This document shows positions 30,732 through 46,043 of a stretch of DNA of 53,228 nucleotides, piece by piece. Source of the stretch: Candidatus Peribacteria bacterium (lineage in GTDB: Bacteria; Patescibacteriota; Gracilibacteria; Peribacterales; Peribacteraceae); assembly GCA_028286915.1 (NCBI GenBank), contig JAQBQQ010000019.1, positions 1 through 53,228 of the forward strand, written 5' to 3'. Under the pieces are notes generated by a model. The model was not told where the DNA came from, ran no database searches, and was given only the letters and a program-made list of their open reading frames with translations. The position numbers and the translations under genes are program-made. Within the stretch, counting starts at the first letter, position 1. Each line of letters begins with the position of its first letter.

Positions 30732-30739
30732 TGGATGAA

Positions 30740-30771: not shown

Positions 30772-30874
30772 AGAATGTTCTCTAGCCGTAATATCAGCGC
30801 CATGCCGCCCAACCGAGCACGGCGAGCAGAATGACGAAGAGAAGCTTCCTGGTGAATGAATAACTGAGACTATG

Positions 30875-30904: not shown

Positions 30905-30992
30905 GTTCTATCTGGTAGAAATATATTAGAGCTATATCTTGATGGTTTGCTTAAACCTAAGCCAAAAACTTTGGTTGTACCTATTGATTTTA

Positions 30993-31020
30993 TTGACAGT
31001 ATTTTATATTATTATATAAT
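30993..31020 (+). promoter_or_regulatory. Fully consensus sigma-70-type promoter
   Basis: Perfect TTGACA, 16 bases, perfect TATAAT, in an AT-rich stretch. It drives the G+C-rich gene at 31073. Predicted leader about 45 bases with a GAGG ribosome-binding site. Confidence 0.85.
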
Positions 31021-31072
31021 AGTAATTAAGTCTATTTACCCTGTTCTTTTAGGCAATGTCTGAGGTCTGAAC

Positions 31073-31333
31073 ATGACGGAGATCATGATCACCCCGCTCG
31101 TCGCAAGGATCACCAAGACCGTCGGCCGCCGCCGAGGCCACGTCAACTCCCGGCAGGTCGGATGTCTCACTAAGGTGAGGCAACACACCCGAGGGAGCAG
31201 GGTGACCCCCGGCCAGATCAACCTCCTCGCGTCGCGCGACGAATGGGAAGAGATCGCGGATCGGCTGGAAACCCGCCGCCCCCGAGGCGGCATGAATGCG
31301 GTCCGGCTGAGCTTCTACAAGAACGGAATGTAG
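31073..31333 (+). CDS. Small basic protein, foreign-looking transcription unit
   Basis: 86 aa, rich in Arg/Lys (RRRGH, TRRPRGG), no signal peptide or membrane segment, not recognised. It has a real Shine-Dalgarno sequence (GAGG, 7 bases before ATG), a fully consensus promoter and two hairpins after the stop. Third codon positions are strongly G/C (ATC, GTC, CGG, CTC), unlike neighbours. Central segment RVTPGQINLLASRDEWEEIADRL looks like a folded helix pair; the basic N-terminus could bind nucleic acid (guess). Together these traits suggest recent transfer of a self-contained gene. Opposite-strand ORFs over it are shadows. Confidence 0.68.
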   Translation: MTEIMITPLVARITKTVGRRRGHVNSRQVGCLTKVRQHTRGSRVTPGQINLLASRDEWEEIADRLETRRPRGGMNAVRLSFYKNGM

Positions 31334-31340
31334 ACTTCCC

Positions 31341-31394
31341 GCCCGAAACGTTCGGGCAACCGGCCGCTCGCACATCTGTGCGAAGCGGCCGTTT
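31341..31394 (+). terminator. Tandem terminator hairpins of the 31073 gene
   Basis: GCCCGAA-ACG-TTCGGGC (31341-31357) is followed by CGGCCGCT CGCACA-TC-TGTGCG-A-AGCGGCCG (31361-31391) and GTTTC. The second stem has 14 bp with a one-base bulge. Confidence 0.78.
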
Positions 31395-31426
31395 CAATAT
31401 GCACTATAAAAATTTATCTCATACGA

Positions 31427-31456
31427 TTGTACGACGCCGACAAAACGCAGTATTCT
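31427..31456 (+). promoter_or_regulatory. Leaderless-type promoter of the YibE/F gene
   Basis: TTGTAC, 18 bases, TATTCT, then 6 pyrimidines (ttcccc) and ATG. The message should have no leader or only a base or two. Confidence 0.5.
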
Positions 31457-31462
31457 TTCCCC

Positions 31463-32659
31463 ATGAAACCACGCCATTTTTCTCTTGTCGCATTTACCGC
31501 CATCAGCCTTGTTTTTACCATGCCTTCTATTTTGCAGGCACAGAACGATCCATTGAACTCATCCTCAGCCGACAATGCATCAGCGGCGCTAAGCCAGCCC
31601 AAGAGTGAATTCGAACGCGGCAAAGTATTGGCCATTACCAAGGAAGTGCCCGACAATTTTGCAGGGATCGACCGTACGGTACAAACGGTCCATATAAAAA
31701 TAACGGCAGGGCCGGATACAGGAAAAGAGTTCGATTTGGAAAATGGAGTTCTGGGCAACCGTAATGATATGCGCCTGAGCGTAGGTGAAACAGTAGTTTT
31801 GGAAAAGCTGGAAAAATCCGATGGAAATATTGAATATCAGGTACGTGAAAAATACCGTCTGCCAGCCGTCCTCTATCTTGGACTTTTCTTCGTCGTTCTT
31901 GCATTCGCATTCGGCGGCATTACCGGCCTTACCTCGTTGCTCGGGCTGGTAGTGAGCGTGTTTATACTCATGTTCTTTGTGATACCAAAAATTGTAGCCG
32001 GCTCCGATCCTCTTACCGTGTGCCTCATTGCCTCTTTCGCCATTGCCTGCACATCGCTATATCTGGCACACGGCTTTCATAAGCGCACGACTGTAGCTCT
32101 TATCAGCACCCTCGTAACGCTTGCTATCTCCGCCATTCTGGCCGTGTCATTCGTGCATATTGCCAAGCTGTTTGGCATGGGCAGCGAGGAATCCATGTTC
32201 CTGCAGTACGGCGTGCTGGACAAAGTGGATCTGCGCGGGCTGCTGCTGGGCGGTATTATTATCGGCTGTCTGGGCGTACTGGATGATGTGACCACGGCGC
32301 AAACCGCGGCCATAGATGAAATCGGCAAAGCCAACCCCAATATGTCGTATCATGATTTACGCAAGGCAGGCATGTCCGTCGGCAAAGAGCATATTGCCTC
32401 ACTTATTAACACACTCGCACTCGCGTACGTGGGCGCCTCACTTCCGCTGCTTTTACTGTTCAAAGTACAGGCCGATTCACCCGCGTGGGTTGTGCTCAAC
32501 AGTGAATTTTTGGCCGAAGAAATTATCCGCACGCTGGTGGGAAGTTCCACGCTTCTGTTTGCCGTGCCTATCTCCACCTGGCTCGCCGCTTATCTACTGC
32601 GGAATGACCGGAATAAAAAATTTGAAGGACGCGGGCATTCGCATCATCATGGACATTGA
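31463..32659 (+). CDS. YibE/F-family membrane protein
   Basis: 398 aa from MKPRHF; 12 track codons upstream overlap the promoter. Signal peptide (about 1-26, QAQ), an extracytoplasmic beta domain (about 40-135; RGKVLAITKE, KITAGPDTGKEFDLENG), then about seven or eight membrane helices with GGIIIGCLGVLDDVTTAQTAA, the most conserved YibE/F segment, and an EEIIRTLVGSS helix. The C-terminus ends in a His-rich tail (GHSHHHGH) that could bind metal. Family function unknown; suggested to be a permease. A heptad array follows its stop. Faces the CopC-CopD gene convergently. Confidence 0.93.
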   Translation: MKPRHFSLVAFTAISLVFTMPSILQAQNDPLNSSSADNASAALSQPKSEFERGKVLAITKEVPDNFAGIDRTVQTVHIKITAGPDTGKEFDLENGVLGNRNDMRLSVGETVVLEKLEKSDGNIEYQVREKYRLPAVLYLGLFFVVLAFAFGGITGLTSLLGLVVSVFILMFFVIPKIVAGSDPLTVCLIASFAIACTSLYLAHGFHKRTTVALISTLVTLAISAILAVSFVHIAKLFGMGSEESMFLQYGVLDKVDLRGLLLGGIIIGCLGVLDDVTTAQTAAIDEIGKANPNMSYHDLRKAGMSVGKEHIASLINTLALAYVGASLPLLLLFKVQADSPAWVVLNSEFLAEEIIRTLVGSSTLLFAVPISTWLAAYLLRNDRNKKFEGRGHSHHHGH

Positions 32660-32666
32660 GGTGAAG

Positions 32667-32698
32667 TATGTAGTACGTAGTAAGTAGTATGTAGTAAG
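32667..32698. repeat. Heptad array after the YibE/F stop
   Basis: Four to five 7-base steps of GTA-N-GTA form (gtatgta-gtacgta-gtaagta-gtatgta-gtaag), 7 bases after the stop codon. Same unit type as the array after proS. Confidence 0.85.
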
Positions 32699-32725
32699 AA
32701 TATTTTTAATTTTCACTTCCATTTT

Positions 32726-32833
32726 ATGACCGGCATTTTTGATTTTGATGGCGAATATACTGAAATAAAAACAACACCCGCGGACAACAACCCACTCTGT
32801 TTTATAAAAATTTTTCACGATCAACAGGACTAA
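32726..32833 (+). CDS. Possible 35-aa protein between two heptad arrays
   Basis: Too short for the ORF track. ATG to TAA encodes 35 residues, starting MTGIFDFDGEY and ending FHDQQD; acidic, no membrane segment. The ATG follows a pyrimidine-rich stretch (ttttcacttccatttt) like native leaders. Against it: isolated position inside a repeat-bounded convergent junction, no visible promoter. It could be a remnant. Confidence 0.3.
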   Translation: MTGIFDFDGEYTEIKTTPADNNPLCFIKIFHDQQD

Positions 32834-32836
32834 CCC

Positions 32837-32892
32837 TTAATACTTAATACTTAATACTTAATACTTAATACTTAATACTTAATACTTAATAC
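32837..32892. repeat. Eight perfect TTAATAC heptads
   Basis: Eight exact tandem copies of TTAATAC, ending 4 bases before the stop codon of the CopC-CopD gene. On that gene's coding strand the unit reads GTATTAA, directly downstream of its stop, mirroring the array after YibE/F. Confidence 0.95.
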
Positions 32893-32896
32893 GTAT

Positions 32897-35758
32897 TCAT
32901 TCCACCTTTAGCAAAAACTTCACCGGATGAATGACGCCTTTATCATTAAATTCAGCGAAGACGGCATATGTTCCGGCAACGGGGAATGCAACAGTGACAT
33001 GTATATCCGGGCCGAACGAATCCGGCAGGTAACCGTGCAATTTTTCGGCTGGCGTTGCCAGGAGGTTGTCTGGAAAATTCGGCAGCAAGTAGCCGTGCGT
33101 ATGCTGGAACTGACGGAGCGTGGTATCTAGTACGGCCAGGTGCATGGCGGCACTTAAATATGGCTGCAGACTGGTGACAGGTTTGCCGTCGCGCTCCATG
33201 TGATACGCCATATCCACCGGTTTGCCGGCACGAATATGCGCGGGCGCCGTAAGAGCAATGGTATAACCATGCAGCTCTTTGGTGCGTGAAAAATCCGGTT
33301 GTGCCTGGGTTACAACATGCGTAGAACCGCTGACAGACACGTAGAATAGTTTACGAATCAATTGAGACCGGACAGTGGCATCCACGGCGACCATGTATTC
33401 ACCTGCGCGTGGGAACGTGTACGCCAATGGAAACGTGGCCCGCTGCTTCATATCGGCCGTCACCGATGTTTGATCCTCCACATGTACGTGATTGAAGACG
33501 CCGAAATCCTGGCTAATGACAATAATATGCAGAATGCGATCATGATCGCGGCTCAGGTCCGTGACCGGTTTGCCCGCGCTGTCGCGGACAGAAAATTGCC
33601 AGGCAACCGGCTTGCCGGCCACAGGTTCCGGCGTATCGGTAATCATGGAAATGGCCGCGTCTGACGGACGCGTGAAATAGGCGTATTCATTTTGATACGG
33701 AAAATGAAACGCACCGGCACCCATGCCGGTCATGCAACCCGGCAATGCCAGTGCGGATGTCGCCAGCCCGTCGCGCATGGGAACACTCTCGTGCCACAGG
33801 TGACCGTTCTGTTCACACTGCCGCTGGAACGGTGTCATCATACTATGATGGTGCAACATGTAAGCCACATACGTAAAAAGAATAACCTGCACGGCGACGG
33901 CCAGTATGCATGGACCCGGCGGCAAAAGGATGAGGGAACCGAATGCGGATTGATTTTTATGATCAATTTTTGTATTCAATTTTTTACTCTTACAATAAAG
34001 ATATAAAGCCAGAAAAAATAAAACTAAAGCACTAGCGATAGATACCGGCAACAGGCCGCCATCAGTATGGGTAAAGTGGGCAGGAAAGAGCGATGCGGTA
34101 TCCACGGTAAAATGTCCGACTACGTCATACTCACCGCTGCGCTGGCCGGTGACATTCACCGTCCATACGCCGGCCGGCGATAATGATGCAACCGGGAAGA
34201 CGTACTCGCCCGGCGCGCGCTCCACCGCCGCCACCGCAATCGGCCCGACATTGGCATTTGTATTGGTAAGCGAGACTGCGAGTGAGGTGGTATCTATGAG
34301 TTGATGCTTTGCATCCTGCAGAGACACCATAAGCGACGATTCTTCCAGCGGATGTCTGGTGAGCAATACCGTCCCCGGCAATGAAGCACTCGTAAGGACA
34401 TCGTACGACGGAGGGGAAACCGGCGGCGTGGTGATAATTAAAAAGCCGGAAATGGTGAGCACTGCAGCACCAAGAATGCTTTCGGTAAGCAGCGTAAACG
34501 GCAGAGATATCCATCGTTCGGATGGTTTGGTAACAACGCCATTCGCCATGGCAACGGCTTCGGCATCAGTATAAAAAATATGATACATACGGATGCCAAG
34601 CAGCGCGAATGCAAATACGGTGAGCACAGCGCACTGCATACCCCAGTGCGTGGCCAAAAGATTGTGCAGCGACTTTAGGTGCAGCCAGACGATGTAACTG
34701 CCGGTCACGCCTCCAATGGCCAGCGCAACGGAGATAAGCATGGATAACCGGGTAAGAAGCGTGGCAGTGAGCCTGCTGTCTTTGGAGAGCGCCAGTGCCG
34801 GCAGCACAATACCGACAAACACGGCAACGGAGCCGATCCACACATCTTTTCCGGCCACATGTACAAAGTTTATGAAAACAGACAACAGCGGATGAAATGA
34901 CGAAGCGGCGGCATGGCTGATGTAGGCGCGCACATAGAGCATGACCAGAATACCAACGGCAATGCCGGTCCACGAAACAGTACGTATACGTTTTTGCCTG
35001 GAGCCGATGAAAAAAAACGGAATCAGCAACAAGATGGCGAGTATGCCGCGCACCAAGGCGGCGCCACCGGCAGACGTGGAACTGTATGTCCCAACCGCCG
35101 ATGCAAAACTGAAGGCATTTGCGGCGCGCAAGTCATTGGCTCCAATAGTAATAGTAAACGCCGTACCAACGACAATCATGCCGATGGACAGGAACGCCAG
35201 CCGTCTGCCGTGCTTTGCTACACGCATCCGTACGTCTTCCGGAGTGGGCCGCATGAGCCAGAGCAGACAGGCAAGAATGCCAACTAATAGTGATTGTCCG
35301 AAGAGTTCTACAACAATGGCGCTGCCTTCGTCGTAGCGGGTTTCGTGCCGTATCTGGAACCGGGCGTTGCCGCCAAGTGGCGTGGTATCCGATACTGTGC
35401 CAACCGAAAAACCGTACGCGCCGTTGGTAAAGTGACCGTCATCAGCAGAAACAACCTGCCAGGAAACAGTATACGTTCCGGTACCGGTACTACTGATTGG
35501 TGCCGTCAAACGCCGCGGCTCGCCGGGACTGACGGTTACCTGCAGGCGCGTACTTTCACCCTGTGGCGTAAACAGCATTATACTGCTGGCTGCAGGTTCA
35601 ATGCGCTCGCTAAAATCTATGGTTACGTTTGACGGCATGGCGGCCACGACAGATGTTGCCTCCGGCTGATACGCAACAGGCGTCGCATGAGCGGATGCGC
35701 GTCCGGCCCAGAGGCCGGAACCCATGACAGCCAAGGATACAAGCAATACACGTATCAT
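32897..35758 (-). CDS. CopC-CopD copper protein fusion with extra C-terminal domains
   Basis: 953 aa from MIRVLL, chosen because it overlaps the upstream stop (ATGA) and opens a signal peptide. Predicted cleavage after RASA leaves mature N-terminus HATPVAY, the CopC copper site with His1. CopC beta domain (about 25-125; the SADDGH segment is typical) leads to a CopD domain of about eight helices (about 150-430) with H-rich loops (HVAGKDVWIGS). Then comes an extracytoplasmic region, a further membrane helix near 585-605, another near 635-655, and two C-terminal beta domains with LHIIVISQDFGVFNHVHVE and MHLAVLDTTLRQFQHTHGY, resembling YtkA/FixH-like metal or heme-associated modules. Copper uptake or tolerance at the cell surface. 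Confidence 0.88.
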   Translation of the reverse strand: MIRVLLVSLAVMGSGLWAGRASAHATPVAYQPEATSVVAAMPSNVTIDFSERIEPAASSIMLFTPQGESTRLQVTVSPGEPRRLTAPISSTGTGTYTVSWQVVSADDGHFTNGAYGFSVGTVSDTTPLGGNARFQIRHETRYDEGSAIVVELFGQSLLVGILACLLWLMRPTPEDVRMRVAKHGRRLAFLSIGMIVVGTAFTITIGANDLRAANAFSFASAVGTYSSTSAGGAALVRGILAILLLIPFFFIGSRQKRIRTVSWTGIAVGILVMLYVRAYISHAAASSFHPLLSVFINFVHVAGKDVWIGSVAVFVGIVLPALALSKDSRLTATLLTRLSMLISVALAIGGVTGSYIVWLHLKSLHNLLATHWGMQCAVLTVFAFALLGIRMYHIFYTDAEAVAMANGVVTKPSERWISLPFTLLTESILGAAVLTISGFLIITTPPVSPPSYDVLTSASLPGTVLLTRHPLEESSLMVSLQDAKHQLIDTTSLAVSLTNTNANVGPIAVAAVERAPGEYVFPVASLSPAGVWTVNVTGQRSGEYDVVGHFTVDTASLFPAHFTHTDGGLLPVSIASALVLFFLALYLYCKSKKLNTKIDHKNQSAFGSLILLPPGPCILAVAVQVILFTYVAYMLHHHSMMTPFQRQCEQNGHLWHESVPMRDGLATSALALPGCMTGMGAGAFHFPYQNEYAYFTRPSDAAISMITDTPEPVAGKPVAWQFSVRDSAGKPVTDLSRDHDRILHIIVISQDFGVFNHVHVEDQTSVTADMKQRATFPLAYTFPRAGEYMVAVDATVRSQLIRKLFYVSVSGSTHVVTQAQPDFSRTKELHGYTIALTAPAHIRAGKPVDMAYHMERDGKPVTSLQPYLSAAMHLAVLDTTLRQFQHTHGYLLPNFPDNLLATPAEKLHGYLPDSFGPDIHVTVAFPVAGTYAVFAEFNDKGVIHPVKFLLKVE

Positions 35759-36285
35759 GATTGTTTTTTGCGCGAAAATAACAGATCGTAGAACAGGTAC
35801 AGCGGAATCCAGCACGCCAGAATAACGGCACCGATTAATAAAATTTCGCGGATACCGAATTGCCAGCCGCCGCCGACCGGGATAGGAAAGGACGCATCAA
35901 CAGTTTTACCGTTCTGCAAAACATACTCCACCAATAACGTATATGTCCCCGGTTTTTCAAACGAATAACCCATGAGTGTCCGCCCGGTGTCCGGACTGGT
36001 TCGCACCGTCTCCTGGTGCTCTCTGTGCGAGCCGAGCTTCAGCTCCACATCAATATGATGGAAATCGACCGCCGGATAGGGGAGCTTGTCTTCCAGTAAA
36101 AAGAAATCAAACACCACCCGCTGATGCGGCTGCAGCGTAATAGCATCGTACCCGATGTCTATAAGATAGTTATCCACCGCCTTCTCCAGTGACTGACCGT
36201 AGCTGTGGGCACCTGCCACAGAAAGGAAACTCACATTCATGATGGCAATGCAGCCGATGAGAAATGATCGGGAGTAATTGAGCAT
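35755..36285 (-). CDS. Secreted membrane-anchored protein with predicted N-terminal His
   Basis: 176 aa. Signal peptide (about 1-25) with cleavage after AGA, giving mature HSYGQSLEKAV. One beta-rich domain (about 40-140; PHQRVVFDFFLLEDK, VDFHHIDVEL, PGTYTLLVEY) is followed by a membrane helix (about 148-170) and a basic end (FSRKKQS). Its ATGA overlap with the CopC-CopD gene puts the two in one operon. Free N-terminal His is the key copper ligand of CopC, LPMO-type and related proteins, so copper binding is plausible. Not assigned to a named family. The FHH pair may add ligands. Confidence 0.8.
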   Translation of the reverse strand: MLNYSRSFLIGCIAIMNVSFLSVAGAHSYGQSLEKAVDNYLIDIGYDAITLQPHQRVVFDFFLLEDKLPYPAVDFHHIDVELKLGSHREHQETVRTSPDTGRTLMGYSFEKPGTYTLLVEYVLQNGKTVDASFPIPVGGGWQFGIREILLIGAVILACWIPLYLFYDLLFSRKKQS

Positions 36286-36344
36286 TACCTGCCTATTGAA
36301 GCATGGAGCGGGGGTTTATAAAAGAAGGTAACGCTCAAAATAGC

Positions 36345-36380
36345 CATGGTAGCCGGGGAATTAATTCCCCGGCTACCATG
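36345..36380. terminator. 36-bp perfect palindrome, probable hairpin terminator
   Basis: CATGGTAGCCGGGGAATT and its exact inverse complement, no spacer, 36 bases after the stop of the pilin-like gene (minus strand) and 60 before the next ATG. No T-run, but very stable as RNA. Confidence 0.6.
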
Positions 36381-36416
36381 AGCGCCAGGGATCGGCGTGC
36401 CAGTTGGTAAAGTAAC

Positions 36417-36926
36417 TTACCGTGTCACTGTAAAAGGCCCATGGTTCTCATAATGCGGCGCATCAACCGTGACAGTTCCGTCTGCATTACGACGGACAGT
36501 ATACCCTGTATAAGCGCCGGATGTTGTCGTGCAGCCAACGCCACAGGATACCGGCGTTGTATTCCCGGACCACCATTTTGGATCTCTAGGCATACTAACG
36601 AGATAGCTTCCCGTAAGACTGGATGCCATAAAAACAGAATCCGAAGAGGCGCAACCGCCCGGTGCATCAGCAATCATGGTAGCGCAGATATGATAGGTCG
36701 TCCCCGGCTTCACATTCTTGAGGCTGTCCGGTAAGGCTTTGTTATCAGTTGTATATTGATAGATTGCATTTGCAGTTGTATTCACATCTGAAAGACGCTG
36801 CCCATCTCTGCTCATATGCCAACTACAATCCTGGCAGTTGGATACTGTCAGCCAATGAAAAATCAGAAAACCGATAATAAGAAAGGTTGCTGCAATTAAA
36901 ATTCCAACTTTATACCGGGTTTGCAT
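36417..36926 (-). CDS. Pilin/pseudopilin-like membrane-anchored protein
   Basis: 169 aa. Short basic start (MQTRYK) and one hydrophobic helix (about 7-27). The extracytoplasmic part has the layout of type II secretion pseudopilins and type IV pilin heads: RDGQRLSDVNTTANAIYQYTTDNKALPDSL, then YHICATM, a Cys-rich loop and a terminal strand set. The usual prepilin peptidase site (G followed by F-T-L-x-E) is absent, so the helix would stay as an uncleaved anchor. Six or more cysteines suggest disulfides. Role unknown. Could be a minor pilin-like surface protein. No other pilus gene is nearby. Confidence 0.7.
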   Translation of the reverse strand: MQTRYKVGILIAATFLIIGFLIFHWLTVSNCQDCSWHMSRDGQRLSDVNTTANAIYQYTTDNKALPDSLKNVKPGTTYHICATMIADAPGGCASSDSVFMASSLTGSYLVSMPRDPKWWSGNTTPVSCGVGCTTTSGAYTGYTVRRNADGTVTVDAPHYENHGPFTVTR

Positions 36927-36974
36927 GCAGAGAACTTTATCGATTTCCTATTGAATGATCAAACACTAAAAACT

Positions 36975-37091
36975 GTCACCCTTCGATACATCCCGCGTGT
37001 CACACTGAGTAGTCCTGAGCTTGGCCCAAAGGGTTCCCTTTGGGGTCGAAGGACGTATCGAAGTGCGAATAGCGGGATTACTCAGGGTGAC
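36975..37091. repeat. 117-bp imperfect palindromic element (MITE/REP-like)
   Basis: Outer arms GTCACCC ... GGGTGAC; inner matching pairs TTCGATAC/GTATCGAA, TCCCGC/GCGGGA and CCTGAG...; centre AAAGGG-TT-CCCTTT. The whole element can fold into a long hairpin. The wording (CTGAG, TTCGA, AAGGGTGAC) resembles dispersed palindromic elements seen in many bacterial genomes. Located between the pilin-like gene and the next minus-strand gene. Confidence 0.75.
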
Positions 37092-37116
37092 GCTCATATA
37101 AGTACACTTTGTCTTT

Positions 37117-37857
37117 TTACTTTCGCTTCTTCATATGTGCACCGGCGCCGACGGCGAGTGCGACTATACTAATGAGAAGGCTCCAGACGCCCAGACCCGT
37201 CGCAGATAAATCCGTTGTCGGTGCCAGCCCGGACAATGTGGTTGTAATATCGGCAAGCGTCGTAGATGGTTCCGGAAAGCCCATTTCTGCCTTGCCATAC
37301 GGACAACCGAAAGCGCCGGCCTTGTCTGTCCGCGTCACGCCATCGGATATTTTCACTTCTTTTTTATCTTCCGGCGTCTGCGTATGTCCCGTCGGGTTGC
37401 ACGAAAACGTAACGTTGACCGGCGTGTTATTCAGCGTACCAAAAAAACGGTACGAGTACGTTGTCTGCACTGTCGGATAAAAAACCGCCTCATATGTACC
37501 GGGCGTTCCGTATGCGGGGCTCAAATCAAATACTCTTTTCTTGTCTCCGGCCGCCACTTCCACTTTGAGTGTCTGCTGCAAATTTTCCACCGGAACGCCT
37601 GCGGATTCACTGTTGCCGTCTCCATCACTGGCCGGCTTTACCGCGCCGGGCACACCAAGCTGCGACACCATGAATTCCACACCTGATTTGTCGTCCACCA
37701 CTACCGGTTCATTCAGTGAGCCAACAGTGAAAGAATAGGTCTTGTCACCAATTTTAAAAGTCTGATGTTCGTGAGCCGATGCGGCAACGGGCAAAAGAAA
37801 GAGAGCAGCTGACACCGCCGCGACGGGGAAAGAAAGGCGCCTCATGTGAAAATTCAT
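37117..37857 (-). CDS. Secreted membrane-anchored protein, predicted mature N-terminus HEH
   Basis: 246 aa from MNFHMRR, whose ATG follows a long C/T tract (CTTTCTTTCATCTTCTTTCCTTTCCAT); the ATG four codons later is an alternative. Signal peptide with ASA cleavage leaves HEHQTFKIGDK. A beta-rich domain of about 170 residues (YSFTVGSLNEPVVVDDKSG, GTYEAVFYPTVQTTYSYRF) is followed by a Gly/Thr linker, a membrane helix (about 215-240) and a basic KKRK end. Similar secreted proteins occur beside CopC-type genes, so a metal role is likely; the His-Glu-His start would fit copper binding. Two cysteines lie in the last third. Family name not known to me. Confidence 0.8.
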   Translation of the reverse strand: MNFHMRRLSFPVAAVSAALFLLPVAASAHEHQTFKIGDKTYSFTVGSLNEPVVVDDKSGVEFMVSQLGVPGAVKPASDGDGNSESAGVPVENLQQTLKVEVAAGDKKRVFDLSPAYGTPGTYEAVFYPTVQTTYSYRFFGTLNNTPVNVTFSCNPTGHTQTPEDKKEVKISDGVTRTDKAGAFGCPYGKAEMGFPEPSTTLADITTTLSGLAPTTDLSATGLGVWSLLISIVALAVGAGAHMKKRK

Positions 37858-38122
37858 ATGGAAAGGAAAGAAGATGAAAGAAAGACAAAGATACAACTGA
37901 CAATTTCCGTACGCAAGCGCCGTGGCGCCGCAACATACAGCCACGCGGCAAGAGAATTATGATAGTGTGTAGCGATGAAATTTCCATGAGGGAGTATGAT
38001 TGCAATCGTACGGCATATACTGTGCATCCTATATCTGTCTCCGTGTAACTTTTTCCCAGCCGTGTCGTAGTTATACTCAGGAATCGATCGATTATATTTC
38101 CCTGTGTTCTTTCTTCTCTTGT

Positions 38123-38695
38123 ATGGCCACCACTGACGAACAGTCTCTTATTGCCTCGTGCCAGGCCGGGAATCTGGAAGATTTTGATCCACTGTACCGG
38201 ACGTATATTCAGCAGATCTATGGTTTTATTTATCGGCGTACGCTTGTGCGCCAGACCGCCGAAGATCTTACCAGTATCACGTTTATGAAAGCGTTGCAGA
38301 AAATAGACAGTTACTCCGGCGACAAAGGCGTATTTGCCGCCTGGTTGTACCGCATTGCGCGCAATACGATAACGGATTACTACCGAACCAATCATGAGCA
38401 TACCGATATAGAGACTGTCTGGGATCTTTCCGAAGACAACCGCATGAGTGAAACGCTAGATGACAAGCAGGCATACCTGCTTGTGCGCGGTGCGCTGCAA
38501 AAACTGGAACCGGAGAAGCGAGATATTGTCATGCTGCGAATGTGGGACGGACTCAGCTATAAAGAAATTGCCGTCATCACCGGTAAGACTGAAACAAATT
38601 GTAAAGTTATTTTTTCCCGCAGTTTGGACTGGCTTCGCAAGGAAATTCCACTGGCCGCTTTCCTGCTCCTCCTTTTTTCCCCCATCCGACTATGA
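38123..38695 (+). CDS. ECF RNA polymerase sigma factor
   Basis: 190 aa from MATTDE, the ATG after a pyrimidine tract (tgttctttcttctcttgt); 41 upstream track codons are rejected. Region 2 (YRTYIQQIYGFIYRRT, AEDLTSITFMKALQKI, GVFAAWLYRIARNTITDYYR) binds the -10; region 4 (LEPEKRDIVMLRMWDGLSYKEIAVITGKTETNCKVIFSRSLDWLRK) binds the -35. The downstream gene overlaps by ATGA and encodes its likely anti-sigma factor. Upstream, TGTAACTT followed about 16 bases later by CGTAG resembles an ECF-type promoter and might be autoregulated. A hydrophobic tail (AAFLLLLFSPIRL) is unusual for an ECF factor. Confidence 0.94.
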   Translation: MATTDEQSLIASCQAGNLEDFDPLYRTYIQQIYGFIYRRTLVRQTAEDLTSITFMKALQKIDSYSGDKGVFAAWLYRIARNTITDYYRTNHEHTDIETVWDLSEDNRMSETLDDKQAYLLVRGALQKLEPEKRDIVMLRMWDGLSYKEIAVITGKTETNCKVIFSRSLDWLRKEIPLAAFLLLLFSPIRL

Positions 38696-40209
38696 GCAAA
38701 TCACCACTCGACTCCCTTCTGGCAGAACTGTATGCCATAGACCCCGAGCTACAAACCCGCGAACAGGAACTCATTCCTTTGCTGCAAACGCTGTTGGAAC
38801 ATCAGCCCGATGCCACGCCGTCCAAGGCATTCGTGGCGCGGCTGCGGTCCGAACTCAAAGCCAAAGCGCGCGCCATGGAAACGGAGCATGCCGGTGTTTC
38901 CCGGTCTTTCTTCTCTGTTTTTTCCGGTTTCAAATTTTCCTACGCCGTACTGGGCGTGGTACTGGGCGCAATTATTACCGCTCCCACGGTCTATTACGCT
39001 TTGCACTCGCCAGGTTCACCGGGCTCCATGGCGCAGCACACCGACGCCAAACCACTCTTCGCCTATTCCATTATCAAGCGACCGCAAAATGCTTTTGGTG
39101 ATCTTTCCACGATCAGTCTGCAGCCCAGCGGCCGCGGTGGCGGAGGAGGAGGACTGGGAGGCGATTCTGCAACAGCAGCTCCGAGTACCGGCAAAATGAT
39201 GGCACCTGCAGGTAGCGGTGGTGGTGCAACGAGCGATCTTATGCCGTATCCGCAGGAAATAACTCAGTACGAATACAGCTTCAGCGGAAGCCTGCCGCCA
39301 CTAACCAGTCCCACAGTACCGGTTCTTAAGCGCGAGAAAAGCAGCGCCCGCATAGATCTTGGTGCCATTGCCGGCAATTTTGATTTGGGCGCGCTGAACA
39401 TACGGTCTTTTCCCGGTGCGCGCGTGGATAACCTTACCTTCACGCAGGACACGCAGTACGGCTATATGGTGAATGTGCAATTAGCCGAAGGCATGGTATC
39501 CATTAACCAGAATTATGCCCAGTGGCCGCAGCCGACAGCCAACTGCAAAGACGAAGCCTGTTATCGGGCTCAGCAGGTGAAGATCAATGAAATCCTGCCG
39601 GACGCGACAGTCATTCATCTCGCATCAGCTTTCGCCAAAGAACATAACTTTGACATGTCTCACTACGGTGAACCGGAAGTGGATAACTCCTGGAAGACTG
39701 ACTACGAACGTACGCCGGACAAGAGCAGCTATTACATTCCCGATGTACAGCGCGTCACGTACCCGCTTCTCATAGACGGCAAGCCTGTGTACGACGAAGG
39801 CGGCGGCAAGGCGGGCATACAAATCGGCGTGAGTGTCCGCGAAAAGAAAGTAACCGATGCATGGGGGCTCATGAACCAGAATTATTTGCGCAGTGATTAC
39901 GCCGCCGTACAGGGCAGTGGCAGCATTCTGAATTTCCTGAAGAACTTTGAGCAGACGCCAAAGGAATTCATGAGTAAAGATGCCAAAGTCCGCAGCGTGA
40001 AGATCGAACTTGGTGAGCCGACTCTCGGCTACACCCGCATGTACAACTACACCAACATGCAGAGTGATGAACTGGTGGTTCCAGCTCTCATTTTCCCGGT
40101 CGCTCATGTGCCGAACGGCGACTATTACTACCGGAAATTCATTGCCGTACCATTGGCCAAAGAACTGTTTGACCGCATGCAAAACCAGGGCAGGCCGATG
40201 CCGCTGTAG
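38692..40209 (+). CDS. Anti-sigma-factor-like membrane protein with large ectodomain
   Basis: 505 aa. Cytoplasmic N-terminus of about 80 residues (LDSLLAELYAIDPEL, TPSKAFVARLRSELK, typical of anti-sigma factors) followed by one membrane helix (about 82-104). The outside part of some 400 residues has a Gly/Ser-rich linker (GRGGGGGGLGGDSA) and then a folded domain with YGYMVNVQLAEG, a Cys pair (CKDEACYRAQ), and YEYS strands. Overlaps the sigma gene by ATGA, so they are coupled. Probably holds the sigma factor until an envelope signal is sensed; the ectodomain type is unrecognised. Followed by a 17-bp-stem terminator. Confidence 0.82.
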   Translation: MSKSPLDSLLAELYAIDPELQTREQELIPLLQTLLEHQPDATPSKAFVARLRSELKAKARAMETEHAGVSRSFFSVFSGFKFSYAVLGVVLGAIITAPTVYYALHSPGSPGSMAQHTDAKPLFAYSIIKRPQNAFGDLSTISLQPSGRGGGGGGLGGDSATAAPSTGKMMAPAGSGGGATSDLMPYPQEITQYEYSFSGSLPPLTSPTVPVLKREKSSARIDLGAIAGNFDLGALNIRSFPGARVDNLTFTQDTQYGYMVNVQLAEGMVSINQNYAQWPQPTANCKDEACYRAQQVKINEILPDATVIHLASAFAKEHNFDMSHYGEPEVDNSWKTDYERTPDKSSYYIPDVQRVTYPLLIDGKPVYDEGGGKAGIQIGVSVREKKVTDAWGLMNQNYLRSDYAAVQGSGSILNFLKNFEQTPKEFMSKDAKVRSVKIELGEPTLGYTRMYNYTNMQSDELVVPALIFPVAHVPNGDYYYRKFIAVPLAKELFDRMQNQGRPMPL

Positions 40210-40226
40210 ACAGAAAAAGGAAGAAT

Positions 40227-40265
40227 ACAAAGAAAACGAGGATTGTATATCCTCGTTTTCTTTGT
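40227..40265 (+). terminator. Intrinsic terminator after the sigma/anti-sigma pair
   Basis: ACAAAGAAAACGAGGAT, 5-base loop TGTAT, ATCCTCGTTTTCTTTGT: perfect 17-bp stem with T-rich 3' arm. Nearly symmetric, so it may work in both directions. Confidence 0.8.
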
Positions 40266-40369
40266 TCGGCATGTCATCTCCATCCTCTTCCAGCTCATCT
40301 TTTTTCGTTTCTTCTGTCCTGTGCTACTATCCCCAGAATAGCGGGCGCCGTCCGTTCATCCTCCTTTTT

Positions 40370-43300
40370 ATGCCTGCCAATTCTTCAGATCAACAGACAG
40401 ATGCACAACTGGAAAAACAAGAGCTTCGCCTGAATGGTTTTGCCACTCTCCGGACCGGCCTTATTGTTCTGGCTGTTATTCCGGCCATGCTGCTGCTCCT
40501 TGGAAGAGCGGCCCTGGAAATTTCCAACATTATGGGAGCCGTCGGGCTTATCGGTTTGTTTATTACAAGCAAGGGCCTGGAAACTATCCGCCAGTCTTTT
40601 GACGGCGCCCTGGAAAGCAAAGTATTTGTCCGGGCAAACCAGAATATCTTCGTGCCGGGATCAGTATCAGCCAGAAAACAACCGGACATGCAGACGCAAG
40701 CGGAGCCACTGGAACCAGCCACCATGTCGGCAGCCGATGGCATGGACTATCTTTCCGGAAAAACAGCAAAGCCGGCACAGCCCATGCGCGAAGCAGATGC
40801 CCGGCCAAAGACCGCGGTAAAAACGGCACCTGTCATACAGAACGGACCGTCACTTATGGGTTCCATTGATTGGGAAGAATGGGTGGGCAAGAAACTCTTA
40901 CAGAAAGCCGGCGTGCTTATTGTCCTCATTGGTATGATCGTCTTTTTGAAGTACTCGTTTGATAACCATATCATTCGCGAGCTCGGCCGCATTATATTGA
41001 GCGTCCTTGCCGCGGCGCTGCTTCTTGGCGCCGGCGAGTGGTACCGCAAACAGTTCCCGCTCTGGTCGCATGCGTTTACCGGCGGCGGTTTTGCATTGTT
41101 CTATTTTACGGTGTGGGTGGCGCACGTACTGTATGCGCCGGCACTTTTGGATCAGCACGGTTTCCAACTGCCGTCTTCGGTAGCGCTGGTGCTGTACAGT
41201 CTTATTACACTCTTTGCCGCACTGGCATCCATTCGTCACAAAGGGCAAACCATTGCGTGGTTCGCGCTCATTGGCGGGTACCTCACGCCACTGCTCATTC
41301 CGGCACCGGACATGGGGCCGTGGATTTTATCAGTATATCTCTGCATTCTTACGGCCGGGCTTGTCGTTCTGTCATGGCACCAGACATGGCGCCGGCTCAC
41401 ACTGGCTGCGTTCGGGCTTACTCAGCTTTTCCTGTTCGGCAAAATATACGCCGCTGATCTTTCGCTGGTTCCGGATTCCGGACAACTGCTGATTGCCGGC
41501 ATTTTCTTCTCGCTCTTTGCCGCTTCCCTACTGCTGTCACAATTTAAACTGAAAGCCAAAACCGATGAGCAGGATATTGTCCTGGTGAGCGCCAACGCCG
41601 CACTTACGTTCTTTGCGTTCACCGATGCAATGGGCGGTTTCACCGGTATGTGGGTGTGGCTGACGGCGCTGCTTTTCGGCGCGCTCTTTCTGGTATTTGC
41701 CGGCATTGCCTTGCGTCTCCGCAGCGATGACGATCCGCTCATTGATACCTACCACATTATTTCCATCATCTTCATAACGCTCGGCATGTGGCTTAAGCTG
41801 AAGCATGACTGGGTTGCCGTTGCACTGGCGCCATTTTCACTGCTGGTGCTTTGGGAAGGAGTATCGTTGCGCCGCAAATCACTTGTTCACTGCAGCACGC
41901 TGCTTATTGCTCTGTCGCTGCTTCTGTTGTTCTTCAACCTGCCGGTCTTTAATCCGTCCGACAAATGGCTGCCGTTTCTCTCGCCGTGGTCCATTCAAAA
42001 TTATGTCGTCAGCGCCTGTTTAATTGGCTGGGTTTTACTGTCTACACGGGTCACCGAACTCATGAAAAATGAAGGCATGAACTTACAAATATTCCGTCAT
42101 GTCATGCATGGGGTTTTGGCATTCCTGTTTTTTGCCTCTATAAGCATAGAAACAACCGGCGCGCATATTACACCCACATTACCGCTGGCCATCGGCTATC
42201 TGTTCTTTGGCGCCGCCGCTATTACTTTATTTTTCCTTATCGGCGAAGTGGTGTGGCTGGCCGCCGCCATGGTGGCGCAGGTACTGGTTTTGTATTTTGC
42301 ATTCGTCAGCGGCAATGGCACGACGCTTAATATTTTCACTTCGTCGTCCGCCGCATTGTTCCAGCCGTGGTCCGGCATTTCGGTACTGTCGCTGTTCCTC
42401 ACCATGGGAATATTTGTCGCCATCAACCGCGGGAAAAATACCATGTTCGGCACGCTCGGCATGCGGTCGCTGCTTATTGGCGTGGGCGTAGTGCAAGTAT
42501 GGCTGCATGTGTCGGTGGAATTACTGCATCTTTCCGCACAGCTCGAGTGGTCGTTTATTCTCTTGCAACGCTCACTTACCGCCTGGTGGCTGGCAGTTGG
42601 CATCAGCTGCATGCTGGCATCTTTGCGTTTCAGGCACTCGCGGCTTATCTACGGCGGACTGGTTTTTGTATGGCTGGCAGTAAGCAAAGATATGCTGCTG
42701 CTTCTGGCAAACAGACTGGATATCGGCTTCACCGGCCTGTGGACGGTTCTGCCTTTTGCCGCCATTATTATCGGCACTGTTTTCCCGCGGCGCATTCTGC
42801 TTACCAATGGCATGCTCATGTTCTGCGTGGCGCTCATTGTGGACCTAGTGCGGCATATGACCATGGCGGATTCCCTGCAGGTCACTCTCTGGTGGTCGGC
42901 CGCCTCGCTGCTCATTTTAAGCTGGGGCATCTGGAAACGCGATGATTCTCTCGTACTCGCCGCGACCGGTTTTCTGTGCATCACGCTGGCGCATGATTTA
43001 TTGCTGATGCTCATATACCCGCTGCCGTTTTTCTACGCTATTTTCTGGACAGTACTCGCACTCGGCATTGCCAGTGGCGGAAAATTCCTCCGGAAAAAAC
43101 AAATGATGACACTGGGTCTGCTGATGCTCATCGCACTGGCGGCCGTGGACATGTTGCGCCACATTGCCAGCGACGCAACACTGGTCCGTACCATCTGGTG
43201 GTCTGTCGTCGCGCTCATTACCATGCTGCTCGGCTTTGCCATGCACGAGAAGCTATTCCGCCAGGTTGCCATCGGCTTCTTTGGCGCCACGGTTATCAAA

Positions 43301-43441
43301 TTGCTCATCTTCGATTTCGCCACGCTGTCCACCGGCGTCCGCATTGGCGCATCCATTTTGACCGGCTTACTGCTGATTGGGGCGTCGTATCTGTACCAAC
43401 GATTTGACGCGATGTTTAAAGAAGAAGCCAAAGAGAAATAG
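40370..43441 (+). CDS. Giant DUF2339-family membrane protein
   Basis: 1023 aa from MPANSS; the ATG follows tcatcctccttttt, and the 120 earlier track codons overlap the anti-sigma gene. Two N-terminal helices, a cytoplasmic-type linker rich in Ala/Pro/Lys (about 85-165), a WEEWVGKKLLQKAGVLIVLIGMIVFLKYS entry segment and then about 25 further hydrophobic helices, the DUF2339 layout. Motif FTGGGFALFYFTVW is characteristic. Function unknown. Such proteins are common in CPR genomes. Composition matches neighbouring native genes. Terminator at 43488-43524. Confidence 0.92.
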   Translation: MPANSSDQQTDAQLEKQELRLNGFATLRTGLIVLAVIPAMLLLLGRAALEISNIMGAVGLIGLFITSKGLETIRQSFDGALESKVFVRANQNIFVPGSVSARKQPDMQTQAEPLEPATMSAADGMDYLSGKTAKPAQPMREADARPKTAVKTAPVIQNGPSLMGSIDWEEWVGKKLLQKAGVLIVLIGMIVFLKYSFDNHIIRELGRIILSVLAAALLLGAGEWYRKQFPLWSHAFTGGGFALFYFTVWVAHVLYAPALLDQHGFQLPSSVALVLYSLITLFAALASIRHKGQTIAWFALIGGYLTPLLIPAPDMGPWILSVYLCILTAGLVVLSWHQTWRRLTLAAFGLTQLFLFGKIYAADLSLVPDSGQLLIAGIFFSLFAASLLLSQFKLKAKTDEQDIVLVSANAALTFFAFTDAMGGFTGMWVWLTALLFGALFLVFAGIALRLRSDDDPLIDTYHIISIIFITLGMWLKLKHDWVAVALAPFSLLVLWEGVSLRRKSLVHCSTLLIALSLLLLFFNLPVFNPSDKWLPFLSPWSIQNYVVSACLIGWVLLSTRVTELMKNEGMNLQIFRHVMHGVLAFLFFASISIETTGAHITPTLPLAIGYLFFGAAAITLFFLIGEVVWLAAAMVAQVLVLYFAFVSGNGTTLNIFTSSSAALFQPWSGISVLSLFLTMGIFVAINRGKNTMFGTLGMRSLLIGVGVVQVWLHVSVELLHLSAQLEWSFILLQRSLTAWWLAVGISCMLASLRFRHSRLIYGGLVFVWLAVSKDMLLLLANRLDIGFTGLWTVLPFAAIIIGTVFPRRILLTNGMLMFCVALIVDLVRHMTMADSLQVTLWWSAASLLILSWGIWKRDDSLVLAATGFLCITLAHDLLLMLIYPLPFFYAIFWTVLALGIASGGKFLRKKQMMTLGLLMLIALAAVDMLRHIASDATLVRTIWWSVVALITMLLGFAMHEKLFRQVAIGFFGATVIKLLIFDFATLSTGVRIGASILTGLLLIGASYLYQRFDAMFKEEAKEK

Positions 43442-43487
43442 ACAGTTGGATGTTGCTCATGCCAATACTATGGAAAATGAAGTTCAT

Positions 43488-43524
43488 GAGGAAGACGAGG
43501 AAAACAGGGTTCCTCGTCTTCCTC
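43488..43524 (+). terminator. Intrinsic terminator of the DUF2339 gene
   Basis: GAGGAAGACGAGGAA, 7-base loop, TTCCTCGTCTTCCTC (15-bp perfect stem) and then a T/C tract (gctttctttatcttcttcc). Confidence 0.82.
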
Positions 43525-43559
43525 GCTTTCTTTATCTTCTTCCTGCACGCCCAATATAC

Positions 43560-43589
43560 TTGACATAATAGACATTTAATATTTAAATA
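43560..43589 (+). promoter_or_regulatory. Promoter of the 43662 gene
   Basis: Perfect TTGACA, 18 bases, TAAATA (with overlapping alternatives in the AT-rich stretch). Native promoters here rarely have a full -35 match. Confidence 0.65.
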
Positions 43590-43594
43590 TGACA

Positions 43595-43661
43595 CTAACC
43601 TCCGGTTAGGTCCTCGCAAGAGGAATGTTCTCTGGCGGCTGTCTCTGTATGGGAGGATCCC
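43595..43661 (+). promoter_or_regulatory. Structured 5' leader with Shine-Dalgarno sequence
   Basis: Two small hairpins, CTAACC-TCC-GGTTAG (43595-43609) and TCCTC-GCAA-GAGGA (43611-43624, GNRA loop), precede GAATGTTCTCT and a strong GGGAGG ribosome-binding site 5 bases before the ATG. The 11-mer GAATGTTCTCT recurs at 30773-30783, again directly after a hairpin. Confidence 0.5.
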
Positions 43662-43907
43662 ATGCGGAAGATCATGCTAGTCTCGTCTCTGGCCTTAGTC
43701 GGCCTCAGCTGTCACGGTTGCAGTGCATGGCGCATGGAAGTAAGCGCCTGCGTGACAACGGACAAAATTCCTCTTCACATCGCCGACGGTAAAACTGACG
43801 GCGTCGGCAGCGGGAAGGTTCAAGTCACATTCGTCCGTGAGGCTGACAAGAAAACCTCACCCGTCGTACCGGACAAATCCGTCCCTCCGGAGAAAAAAGA
43901 GAAATGA
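43662..43907 (+). CDS. Small lipoprotein-like secreted protein, foreign-looking unit
   Basis: 81 aa. Signal peptide with Cys-containing cleavage region (LVGLSCHGCSAW), so either a lipoprotein with C17/C20 modified or a plain secreted protein. Short mature part of about 60 residues with one more Cys, a Gly/Asp loop, a strand (KVQVTFVRE) and a Pro/Lys-rich end (PPEKKEK). Not recognised. It has a canonical Shine-Dalgarno sequence, its own promoter and its own palindromic terminator, and G/C-biased third positions, in contrast to the native genes on both sides. Probably acquired with the same kind of source as the 31073 gene and the PEP-CTERM gene (inference). Confidence 0.68.
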   Translation: MRKIMLVSSLALVGLSCHGCSAWRMEVSACVTTDKIPLHIADGKTDGVGSGKVQVTFVREADKKTSPVVPDKSVPPEKKEK

Positions 43908-43930
43908 GCGGCCTGCCGGACTACAACTAA

Positions 43931-43954
43931 GGAACCATCGCATGCGATGGTTCC
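43931..43954 (+). terminator. Palindromic terminator of the 43662 gene
   Basis: GGAACCATCGCATGCGATGGTTCC, a 24-base perfect palindrome, followed by TACATTTTT. A second small hairpin (ATGTATG-CGC-CATACAT) lies at 43964-43980. Confidence 0.78.
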
Positions 43955-44089
43955 TACATTTTTATGTATGCGCCATACATGCATATAGTGATTGAAATCC
44001 ATATTTTGACTGGTTCCAGCTTTTTATGAGGATCTGCGGCCACAAAGAGCCACTTTCTGTGATGCAATGGTAATCACCAAAAAACCCTC

Positions 44090-44095
44090 TATAAT
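44090..44095 (+). promoter_or_regulatory. -10 box of the capA-like gene
   Basis: Perfect TATAAT 8 bases before the ATG, so the mRNA is predicted to be leaderless. No clear -35 box. Confidence 0.55.
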
Positions 44096-44103
44096 CCGCC
44101 ACT

Positions 44104-45096
44104 ATGGTTAACCGCATATTCTTTCTGCTCGTAAGCCTTACCGCTTTGCTTATAATAACGGTGGCAACCACTATTGCCCTCTTTCTGCAGCCGTTCCATG
44201 CCCGGTTCTTTACGCCGGCCGAAGCGCGGTCCACAGTTACGCTTATTGCGGTTGGCGACATTATGACCTCGCGCATGGTGGCAAGACAGATAATTAAACC
44301 ACCGACAGAAAATTATCCATTTACGCATATACAAGATTATCTGGCGACAGCGGATATTATTTTCGCCAATCTGGAAACACCGGTTGTAGAAGGCGATATG
44401 GTTTCAACGACAACCATGCAGTTCCGGTCGGACCCGGTTGTGGCAACACTGTTACATGCCGCCAATATTTCCCTGGTCTCGCTGGCCAATAACCACATGC
44501 ATGACTACAAAAAGAAAGGACTGATGCGGACCGTGGAGCTTATGAAGGAGAACGGCATACAGGCCGCCGGTGCCGGAGTAAACACACACGATGCCTATGC
44601 ACCGGTATACGTTGAAAAGAATGGAATCACCGTTGCCCTGCTCGCCTATATAGACCCCGGTCTGGCGCCGGCCAATGCTTACCCGACCGACACCCTGCCG
44701 GGCGTTGCCGTGATGAATATGGATAAACTGAGAGACGGAATACTGGAGGCAAAAAAGCACGCGGATGTTGTCATAGTCTCCATGCATGGCGGACGGGAAT
44801 ACACGAGGGAGCCGACAGCAACCCAGAAAAATTTTGCCTACGCCGCCATAGACGACGGTGCAGATATTGTCCTTGGCCACCACCCGCACTGGGTACAAAC
44901 CGTGGAAGAATATAAAGGCAAAACCATTTTCTACAGCCTGGGAAATTTTGTGTTTGATCAATTATGGTCCAAAGAGACCCGCAACGGGCTCACGGCAAAA
45001 ATTACCATGACCAAAGAAGGCATTACACAGGTGGAGCAGATTCCGATTTATATAGACGAGACGTATCAGCCGACCATTGTACAAATGGATAATTAA
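44104..45096 (+). CDS. CapA-family protein (poly-gamma-glutamate synthesis type metallophosphatase fold)
   Basis: 330 aa. N-terminal signal anchor (about 5-28), then a calcineurin-like metallophosphoesterase domain of the CapA/PgsA type: VGDIMTSR, FANLETPVV, LANNHMHDY, VVIVSMHGGREYT, VLGHHPHWVQ and YSLGNFVFDQ, the full motif series with metal ligands Asp, Asn and His. CapA proteins take part in poly-gamma-glutamate or capsule handling at the membrane, but many homologues are of unknown role; no other pgs/cap genes are visible. Monocistronic. Faces the PEP-CTERM gene across a strong hairpin. Confidence 0.93.
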   Translation: MVNRIFFLLVSLTALLIITVATTIALFLQPFHARFFTPAEARSTVTLIAVGDIMTSRMVARQIIKPPTENYPFTHIQDYLATADIIFANLETPVVEGDMVSTTTMQFRSDPVVATLLHAANISLVSLANNHMHDYKKKGLMRTVELMKENGIQAAGAGVNTHDAYAPVYVEKNGITVALLAYIDPGLAPANAYPTDTLPGVAVMNMDKLRDGILEAKKHADVVIVSMHGGREYTREPTATQKNFAYAAIDDGADIVLGHHPHWVQTVEEYKGKTIFYSLGNFVFDQLWSKETRNGLTAKITMTKEGITQVEQIPIYIDETYQPTIVQMDN

Positions 45097-45098
45097 AA

Positions 45099-45125
45099 AG
45101 GCCCCGCTCATGGAGAGCGGGGCCT
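45099..45125 (-). terminator. Intrinsic terminator of the PEP-CTERM gene
   Basis: Minus strand: AGGCCCCGCTC - TCCAT - GAGCGGGGCCT followed by TTTTAATT. Perfect 11-bp G+C-rich stem with T-run; on the plus strand no T-run follows. Confidence 0.9.
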
Positions 45126-45153
45126 AAGGAGAGTTGCTGATGTCAACAGGGCA

Positions 45154-45864
45154 TCAGCTATTGTTGCTCTTCTTCTGCAGCCGGCGACGGCTACGAAGAC
45201 CCAACGTTCCGATGGTCAGTACTCCCGTAACCAGGAGACTGATGGAGCCGGGCTCGGGCACCGTACGGATCTGGCCCGTGGGAGCGAACGACTTTTCCGT
45301 GGAAGTCGCGCCGTTGATGACGGCAAGACTCCCGAGCATGTAGCCGGTGGCGTTGGTCCGGAGCATAAGCTGTAACGATGCCATGCCGGGCAGGACGCCG
45401 TTATTGCTAATCATATCCGGAGGAAGGAAATCGAACCCGATATTCTTGCCGTTCAGGGAACGGTCGAAGGAAATCGGCTTGATGGTTCCGCCGTACACGC
45501 CCGGTCCGCCGTAATTCACGCTGACGGCATAGGCTCCGAACGACCGCCACACGCCGCGGTATAACGAGTCCTGGCTGAAGGAATCGTTCTTCAATTCCAC
45601 GACGAAGGTAAGCCCGCCGAGCGCGTTGTGGGCCAGGTCCTCCTGGTACACACGCGACAGGACCTCACCACTAAAGAGCACGTCGCCCAGGGCATCGACA
45701 CCGCTGAGCGGCTGACTCAGCGAGTCCAGAAGCGTGGCCCCGGGATCCAGCACCGACGCGGATGCCAGGACAGACTGACCCGAGAGGATGAAATCAGCTT
45801 TGGCCGCAATCGGCGAGGCGGTCGCCAGCATGGCGATGGCGAGAAGCAGGAAACGGCGCTTCAT
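45154..45864 (-). CDS. PEP-CTERM sorting-signal protein, foreign-looking unit
   Basis: 236 aa from MKRRFL, the ATG 7 bases after GGGAG; 33 upstream track codons are rejected. Signal peptide (cleavage near AKA), a beta-rich domain (about 25-205) unlike any I can name, then a textbook PEP-CTERM tail: VPEPGS, hydrophobic helix (about 208-226) and Arg-rich end (RSRRRLQKK). Such tails are cut and processed by exosortases, known mainly from Gram-negative polymer-forming bacteria; none is encoded here and the host looks monoderm with sortases. G/C-biased codons, a strong Shine-Dalgarno sequence and a self-contained unit suggest horizontal origin. Confidence 0.85.
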   Translation of the reverse strand: MKRRFLLLAIAMLATASPIAAKADFILSGQSVLASASVLDPGATLLDSLSQPLSGVDALGDVLFSGEVLSRVYQEDLAHNALGGLTFVVELKNDSFSQDSLYRGVWRSFGAYAVSVNYGGPGVYGGTIKPISFDRSLNGKNIGFDFLPPDMISNNGVLPGMASLQLMLRTNATGYMLGSLAVINGATSTEKSFAPTGQIRTVPEPGSISLLVTGVLTIGTLGLRSRRRLQKKSNNS

Positions 45865-45897
45865 CAACGTACTCCCAATGCAAAGGAACAGACGATA

Positions 45898-45915
45898 CCG
45901 TGCAACGTTGCACGG
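45898..45915. repeat. 18-bp perfect palindrome in the PEP-CTERM leader
   Basis: CCGTGCAAC/GTTGCACGG, 34 bases upstream of the ATG. Could be an operator or a leader hairpin. A smaller palindrome (AGCATTTAATGCT) lies about 35 bases further upstream. Confidence 0.75.
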
Positions 45916-46000
45916 CAGATCTTCCCGCAAACGGCAGGAAGGCACCAGTATGGCAGATAGCATTTAATGCTGCAACATATAATTTATAAAAAGCAATAAG

Positions 46001-46024
46001 TTAAAAAGGCGCCTGAGCGCCTTT
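46001..46024 (-). terminator. Intrinsic terminator of typA
   Basis: Minus strand: AAAGGCGC - TCAG - GCGCCTTT followed by TTAACTT. 8-bp stem with T-rich tail, 20 bases after the typA stop. Confidence 0.85.
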
Positions 46025-46043
46025 CTATCAGCCAGATCCATAT

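Follow-up and report, generated by a model that had tools for sequence, protein, structure and literature searches.

How do genes with canonical Shine–Dalgarno (SD) sequences come to stand in a genome that otherwise makes little use of them? The question is raised by three genes, here called c1, c2, and c3, with starts at 31073, 43662, and 45864 of a contig from a Candidatus Peribacteria bacterium (the window; 53,228 nucleotides, contig 22 of the genome). We analyzed stretches amounting to ∼752 kb (∼52%) of this genome, a 1.43-Mb bin of 48 contigs with an estimated contamination of 1.56%, and 101–200 kb from each of eight relatives, with genes in the sampled sequence called by a home-made codon model. 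Labels with G and L denote genomes and stretches, respectively; G000 is the genome studied, and L056 is its contig 41. The features of the three units are as follows.

30993..31020, + strand: perfect sigma-70-type promoter of c1, TTGACA-16 nt-TATAAT, the only 12/12 match within 30500-46100
31062..31066, + strand: SD of c1, GAGGT, 6 nt upstream of the ATG at 31073
31073..31333, + strand: c1 coding sequence, 86-aa orphan protein, GC3 0.84
31341..31391, + strand: paired G+C-rich hairpins 3′ of c1, GCCCGAAACGTTCGGGC and CGGCCGCTCGCACATCTGTGCGAAGCGGCCG, predicted from sequence
43560..43565, + strand: TTGACA, perfect −35 hexamer 5′ of c2, with a good −10 absent at 15–19 nt
43651..43656, + strand: SD of c2, GGGAGG, within the short palindrome GGGAGGATCCC, 5 nt upstream of the ATG at 43662
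43662..43907, + strand: c2 coding sequence, 81-aa small secreted or lipoprotein-like orphan, GC3 0.63
43930..43955, + strand: terminator-like hairpin of c2
45099..45125, − strand: terminator-like hairpin common to c3 and the convergent PGA_cap gene
45154..45864, − strand: c3 coding sequence, 236-aa secreted protein, GC3 0.77
45872..45876, − strand: SD of c3, GGGAG, 7 nt upstream of the ATG at 45864

The three SDs are canonical and well spaced, as a preliminary description of this DNA had reported. The other signals that it listed stood up unevenly. Both perfect TTGACA hexamers are present, at c1 and c2, but the second lacks a good −10, and because promoter-like sites in the region do not exceed chance (12 observed, 16.4 expected), only the c1 promoter is convincing. 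It implies a leader of ∼46 nt, unlike those of native genes. Terminator hairpins had been assigned to each gene; those of c2 and c3 were recovered, the latter shared with its convergent neighbor, but the strong hairpins of c1 are followed by a weak T tail without a full T run and were not scored as terminators. G/C-rich third codon positions, claimed for all three genes, are extreme in c1 and c3 (100th and 99th GC3 percentiles; genome median 0.565), whereas c2 is near-normal in composition and deviates only mildly (90th percentile). Between an ABC transporter gene and c1, we also observed a tiny ORF (30744-30900, + strand; ATG at 30775, 19 codons) with GGAGG as its SD and a terminator hairpin. 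Its AATGTTCTCT (Met-Phe-Ser) recurs in the c2 leader, within a possible upstream ORF at 43625, and these are the only two copies in the 752 kb.

The c2 product has a hydrophobic N terminus followed by a Cys. In c3, a signal peptide (judged by eye) is combined with a C-terminal PEP-CTERM motif at residues 201-227, the tail noticed earlier; it passes the TIGR02595 profile (17 bits; cut-off 16), while PF07589, also at 17 bits, stays below its cut-off of 20.7. A search of G000 for exosortase (PF09721) returned no match. Exosortase-like proteins above the Pfam cut-off occur in 6 of 74 family genomes (G064, G058, G001, G077, G078, and G004), and PEP-CTERM sorting may be patchily present in the Peribacteraceae.

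The genome around these genes, described earlier as non-SD, proved to be SD-poor. SD-like words of at least four bases precede 11% of called starts, compared with 22% of out-of-frame internal ATGs, and AGGA occurs at −16..−5 in 3% of starts, a frequency not exceeding that further upstream. Genome-wide, pyrimidines prevail and G is scarce in the last 12 bases upstream of the ATG. Among native first genes of G000, TANNNT begins exactly 12 nt upstream of the ATG in 14.8% of cases against a background of 2.6%, and an enrichment at −12 was found in all seven relatives profiled; counted at −15 to −12, the box precedes 124 of 371 native first genes and 39 of 371 at a control position. A −10 box at this distance from the start codon is the signature expected of leaderless mRNAs, and the lineage is predicted to begin translation mostly on such transcripts. 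The scarcity of SDs follows from this leaderless type of native gene together with a 16S rRNA tail that lacks CCUCC. One relative, G034, requires TGA as a sense codon, a trait that in combination with the 16S tail indicates Gracilibacteria/Peregrinibacteria.

The 16S rRNA gene of G000 (L056 7914-9382, − strand) is a full-length bacterial small-subunit gene (RF00177) and the single match in the genome, which argues against a second ribosome with a canonical anti-SD. Its tail, without the CCUCC anti-SD, is GGAACAUUUCCUUACCAGGGAA (also given as GGAACATTTCCTTACCAGGGAA), and the 3′ end reads ...GGAUGGAACAUUUCCUUACCAGGGAA in place of ...GGAUCACCUCCUUA. A tail of the form GGAUGGAAC(A/G)YYUCCUUACCAGGGAR is present in 27 of 30 retrieved family loci, once with an extra A, and beyond R the sequences diverge; the motif was not obtained from the other three, one of which (G001 L236) retains CCUCC after a changed GGAACA. 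The inner Y and the R pair without exception (C-G in 6 and U-A in 10 of 16 distinct sequences), so UCCUU is able to fold back on GGGAR. This evidence for a short predicted hairpin formed by the residual UCCUU is suggestive only, since one of the five pairs varies. The hairpin may be confined to the precursor.

Leaders with an SD pair at a mean of −8.2 kcal/mol with the canonical anti-SD and −6.7 kcal/mol with the tail of this genome, compared with −3.4 to −3.5 kcal/mol for native genes, values that are in part circular because SD motif and composition had partly guided the selection of the SD-led catalogue. At the −6.7 kcal/mol mean of the class, AAGGAG could still pair with UUCCUU to some extent. 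The bS21 protein of the genome gave a weak profile match only.

The three genes had been thought to be the only ones led by an SD. We found instead ∼33 such units in the 752 kb, spread genome-wide on >20 contigs rather than concentrated in the 15 kb around c1–c3, and mostly with called genes on both flanks. All 33 are monocistronic, compared with 357 of 509 host genes (70%), and none has the leaderless −10 box that precedes 124 of 371 native first genes (p = 5e-6). Besides orphans, they encode small membrane or secreted proteins and, in a few cases, accessory proteins (Ham1, NUDIX, GH6, an M23 peptidase, a DUF11 surface protein, and two CsrA). Because the list was selected by SD and partly by composition, its own composition is not evidence; the genome-wide GC3 test is. 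In it, 9 of the 17 genes above the 97th GC3 percentile proved to be SD-led, compared with 42 of the remaining 559 (odds ratio 14, p = 2e-6).

Relatives of c1, c2, and c3 were absent from the 73 other family genomes. About 6 of 24 SD-led orphans have family relatives, compared with, among the matches listed, at least 6 of 8 non-SD genes of matched length (p = 0.03); the queries were pooled and thus less sensitive, eight of the ten proteins drawn for the control were queried, and the control figure could only be higher. In the A+T-rich relative G020, the homologue of one SD-led gene is SD-led as well, and its GC3 of 0.46 exceeds the 99th percentile of that host (0.40). The same genome has, at L129 6900-19200, a block of SD-led genes of higher GC3 that looks like an acquired operon and encodes, among others, subunits A and D of a V/A-type ATPase. 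The L054:4672 family has SD-led members in three genera (G000, G014, and G070), whereas its members in nine other genomes carry the leaderless −10 box, a pattern to be expected if acquired leadered genes were later converted or if the two types were separately acquired. Two SD-led families retain the SD across several genera; the L052:5664 family does so in at least three other genera. Since these families and csrA keep their SDs, the signals are not simply decaying, and their retention would reflect either frequent movement of the genes or selection on the SD or on a CsrA-bound GGA.

CsrA binds GGA in leaders, and csrA itself belongs to the SD-led class:

L038 8859-9149, − strand: csrA copy
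L038 9349-9558, − strand: csrA copy

Further copies lie on L059–L068. The gene occurs in 15 of 24 genomes of the family (G000 included) and in none of 16 from the other families of the class. Every readable copy (eight, from seven genera) is SD-led, with a spacing of 7–9 nt and without a leaderless −10 box. GGA is present at the SD of most SD-led leaders by construction of the class, c1 having GAGG instead. Across eight relatives, we found no relation between the presence of csrA and the number of SD-led genes or the SD excess. Multidomain or tandem CsrA-like proteins, with three and four CsrA domain matches, were observed at L119 13230-13541 (G013) and at G010:C50:4022-5059.

On balance, c1, c2, and c3 are probably horizontally acquired accessory genes that keep donor-type leaders. 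We favor this origin because of the missing family relatives, the PEP-CTERM tail in a genome lacking exosortase matches, the G020 homologue, and the L054:4672 family, along with the association of SD and high GC3, the monocistronic layout without a leaderless box, and the stronger pairing of the leaders with a canonical anti-SD. Weighing against it are the near-normal composition of c2 and the SDs that persist across genera in two families and in all eight csrA copies. The genes would have arrived as complete single-gene units, each with promoter, leader, canonical SD, coding sequence, and terminator, from SD-using bacteria into a mostly leaderless, Peribacter-like recipient lineage (Gracilibacteria/Peregrinibacteria) without the CCUCC core, so that a leader with a canonical SD would be a visible mark of foreign origin. 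We infer the direction of transfer, and we envisage that the genes are weakly translated with the help of the UCCUU left in the 16S tail and that they entered as free DNA, taken up by the cell and integrated by illegitimate recombination. The different donor proposed in the preliminary description accords with canonical SDs and leaders, GC3, the absence of relatives in 73 genomes, the lack of exosortase, and the single-gene arrangement.

A single scan of genome contigs for the donor gave only a spurious 36-residue match. Among SD-led or high-GC3 proteins, LExR-type N termini (L043 8866-11868 and L052 14984-16288), CsrA, and Clp_N repeat proteins, with further examples of such N termini or domains at L042 647-1234 and L111 9465-14480, may recall Planctomycetota, a candidate donor group. 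Plasmids, phages, and defense systems were considered as sources and set aside. No plasmid relative of c3 was found, and among ten SD-led proteins, the sole plasmid match was the L054:4672 membrane protein (Paraburkholderia/Rhizobium plasmids, 23–28% identity). Against PHROGs, the best E value for c1 was 0.079, and ten other SD-led genes gave nothing at 0.01; c1 matched neither a phage record nor a viral contig, and c3 matched no viral contig. A PADLOC match was absent. The neighborhood of TypA, where an empty site for c3 was sought, is conserved in no relative, and an empty-site comparison is therefore impossible.

The strongest competing account holds that the SD-led genes are native and form a selected second tier of translation, with leaders read through the residual UCCUU once it is freed from the hairpin, as for rpsU in Flavobacteria, and/or controlled by CsrA. 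The retention of SDs in csrA, confined to the family in the genomes compared, and in the L052:5664 family, together with the residual pairing, makes a separately controlled tier of leadered genes our second reading. UCCUU is also invariant in the 16S tail, the hairpin pair covaries perfectly, the SD-led genes are without exception leadered and single, and native leaderless mRNAs provide no GGA leader site for CsrA. However, most of the SD-led genes are orphans whose GC3 resembles that of a donor, SD-led genes are present in the csrA-less relatives G014 and G020, the SD excess in the eight relatives is unrelated to csrA, and the hairpin may exist in the precursor only; we consider this account unlikely. 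A shade less likely still is a combined scheme in which native genes would be leaderless and acquired SD-led genes would be read only when a hairpin-locked anti-SD is freed and/or through control by CsrA. The high-expression class suggested earlier was unsupported in that form, although a regulated leadered class is conceivable given that csrA is always SD-led. Codon bias and SDs that simply reflect the expression level of native genes would explain why GC3 and SD increase together, yet no ribosomal protein, elongation factor, or other high-expression gene was recognized in the SD-led lists, and c1–c3 and most others are orphans missing from relatives, so that this is the least probable of the explanations weighed here.

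Two further explanations concern how the DNA came to lie where it does. The earlier suggestion of a mechanism that inserts small genes found no backing in flanking repeats, in integrases among nine window proteins, in phage-family matches, or in the genome-wide spread of the units. Delivery by one particular mobile element, for instance an integron or small transposon, would suit small, complete, single-gene units with hairpins, and the only copies of an 11-mer, GAATGTTCTCT, in the 752 kb lie close to c1 and c2. This sharing is, however, close to chance expectation; the borders have no common family, no attC-like shared ends were found, the nine window proteins scanned include no transposase either, and the units are not clustered in arrays, all of which makes such delivery improbable. 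Assembly chimeras or contaminating DNA, for which one could cite the 48 contigs and 1.56% estimated contamination of this metagenome bin, are slightly more improbable again: native genes surround the three units inside a single contig, others of the kind sit on >20 contigs with genes mostly at both flanks, and further bins of the family have SD-led units too.

If horizontal acquisition is right, the type of start signal marks acquired genes in this lineage without the need for a donor genome. Gene flow into tiny host-dependent bacteria would then be readable from sequence, and the donors, perhaps partner organisms, could be sought. It also raises the question of whether a CCUCC-less ribosome reads canonical SD leaders or whether acquired genes first need conversion to leaderless form, for which the L054:4672 family, with SD-led and leaderless members, offers natural before-and-after cases. 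If instead the two-tier scheme is true, the SD-led, family-specific CsrA would act on incoming DNA as a xenogeneic regulator at the level of translation.

Several known systems resemble parts of this picture. Integron gene cassettes are likewise small, single-gene, promiscuous acquisitions, but c1 has its own promoter, and there is no array, recombination site, or integrase (the last among nine window proteins). PEP-CTERM/exosortase secretion shares with c3 the signal peptide and the C-terminal motif; it differs in that exosortase was not found in c3's own genome. In Flavobacteriia, whose ribosomes are also mostly SD-blind and in which an exceptional SD-led gene (rpsU) is under regulation, bS21, bS18, and bS6 hold the tail (PMC9976891), whereas the present lineage has a mutated core and a predicted hairpin in the tail. 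A further parallel is offered by the SD-scarce organisms without CCUCC, few of whose genes are SD-led; Peregrinibacteria are named among them, and Ca. Peribacter riflensis is listed in class iv (PMC10783764, Table 4). That Ca. Peribacter riflensis has lost CCUCC is thus already published; the remainder we did not find described. In that survey we found no description of the leaderless promoter signal of the lineage, the family-wide tail and hairpin, or the minority of single orphan genes with canonical SDs and high GC3, and a search of a limited literature collection gave no report of such a promoter signal in Peregrinibacteria. The leaderless genes of other bacteria and archaea likewise have a −10 box immediately ahead of the start codon, and two start modes coexist in one genome there too (PMC3160421, PMC5397173); here, in contrast, it is the genes with leaders and SDs that form the exotic minority, and the core of the anti-SD has itself been lost.
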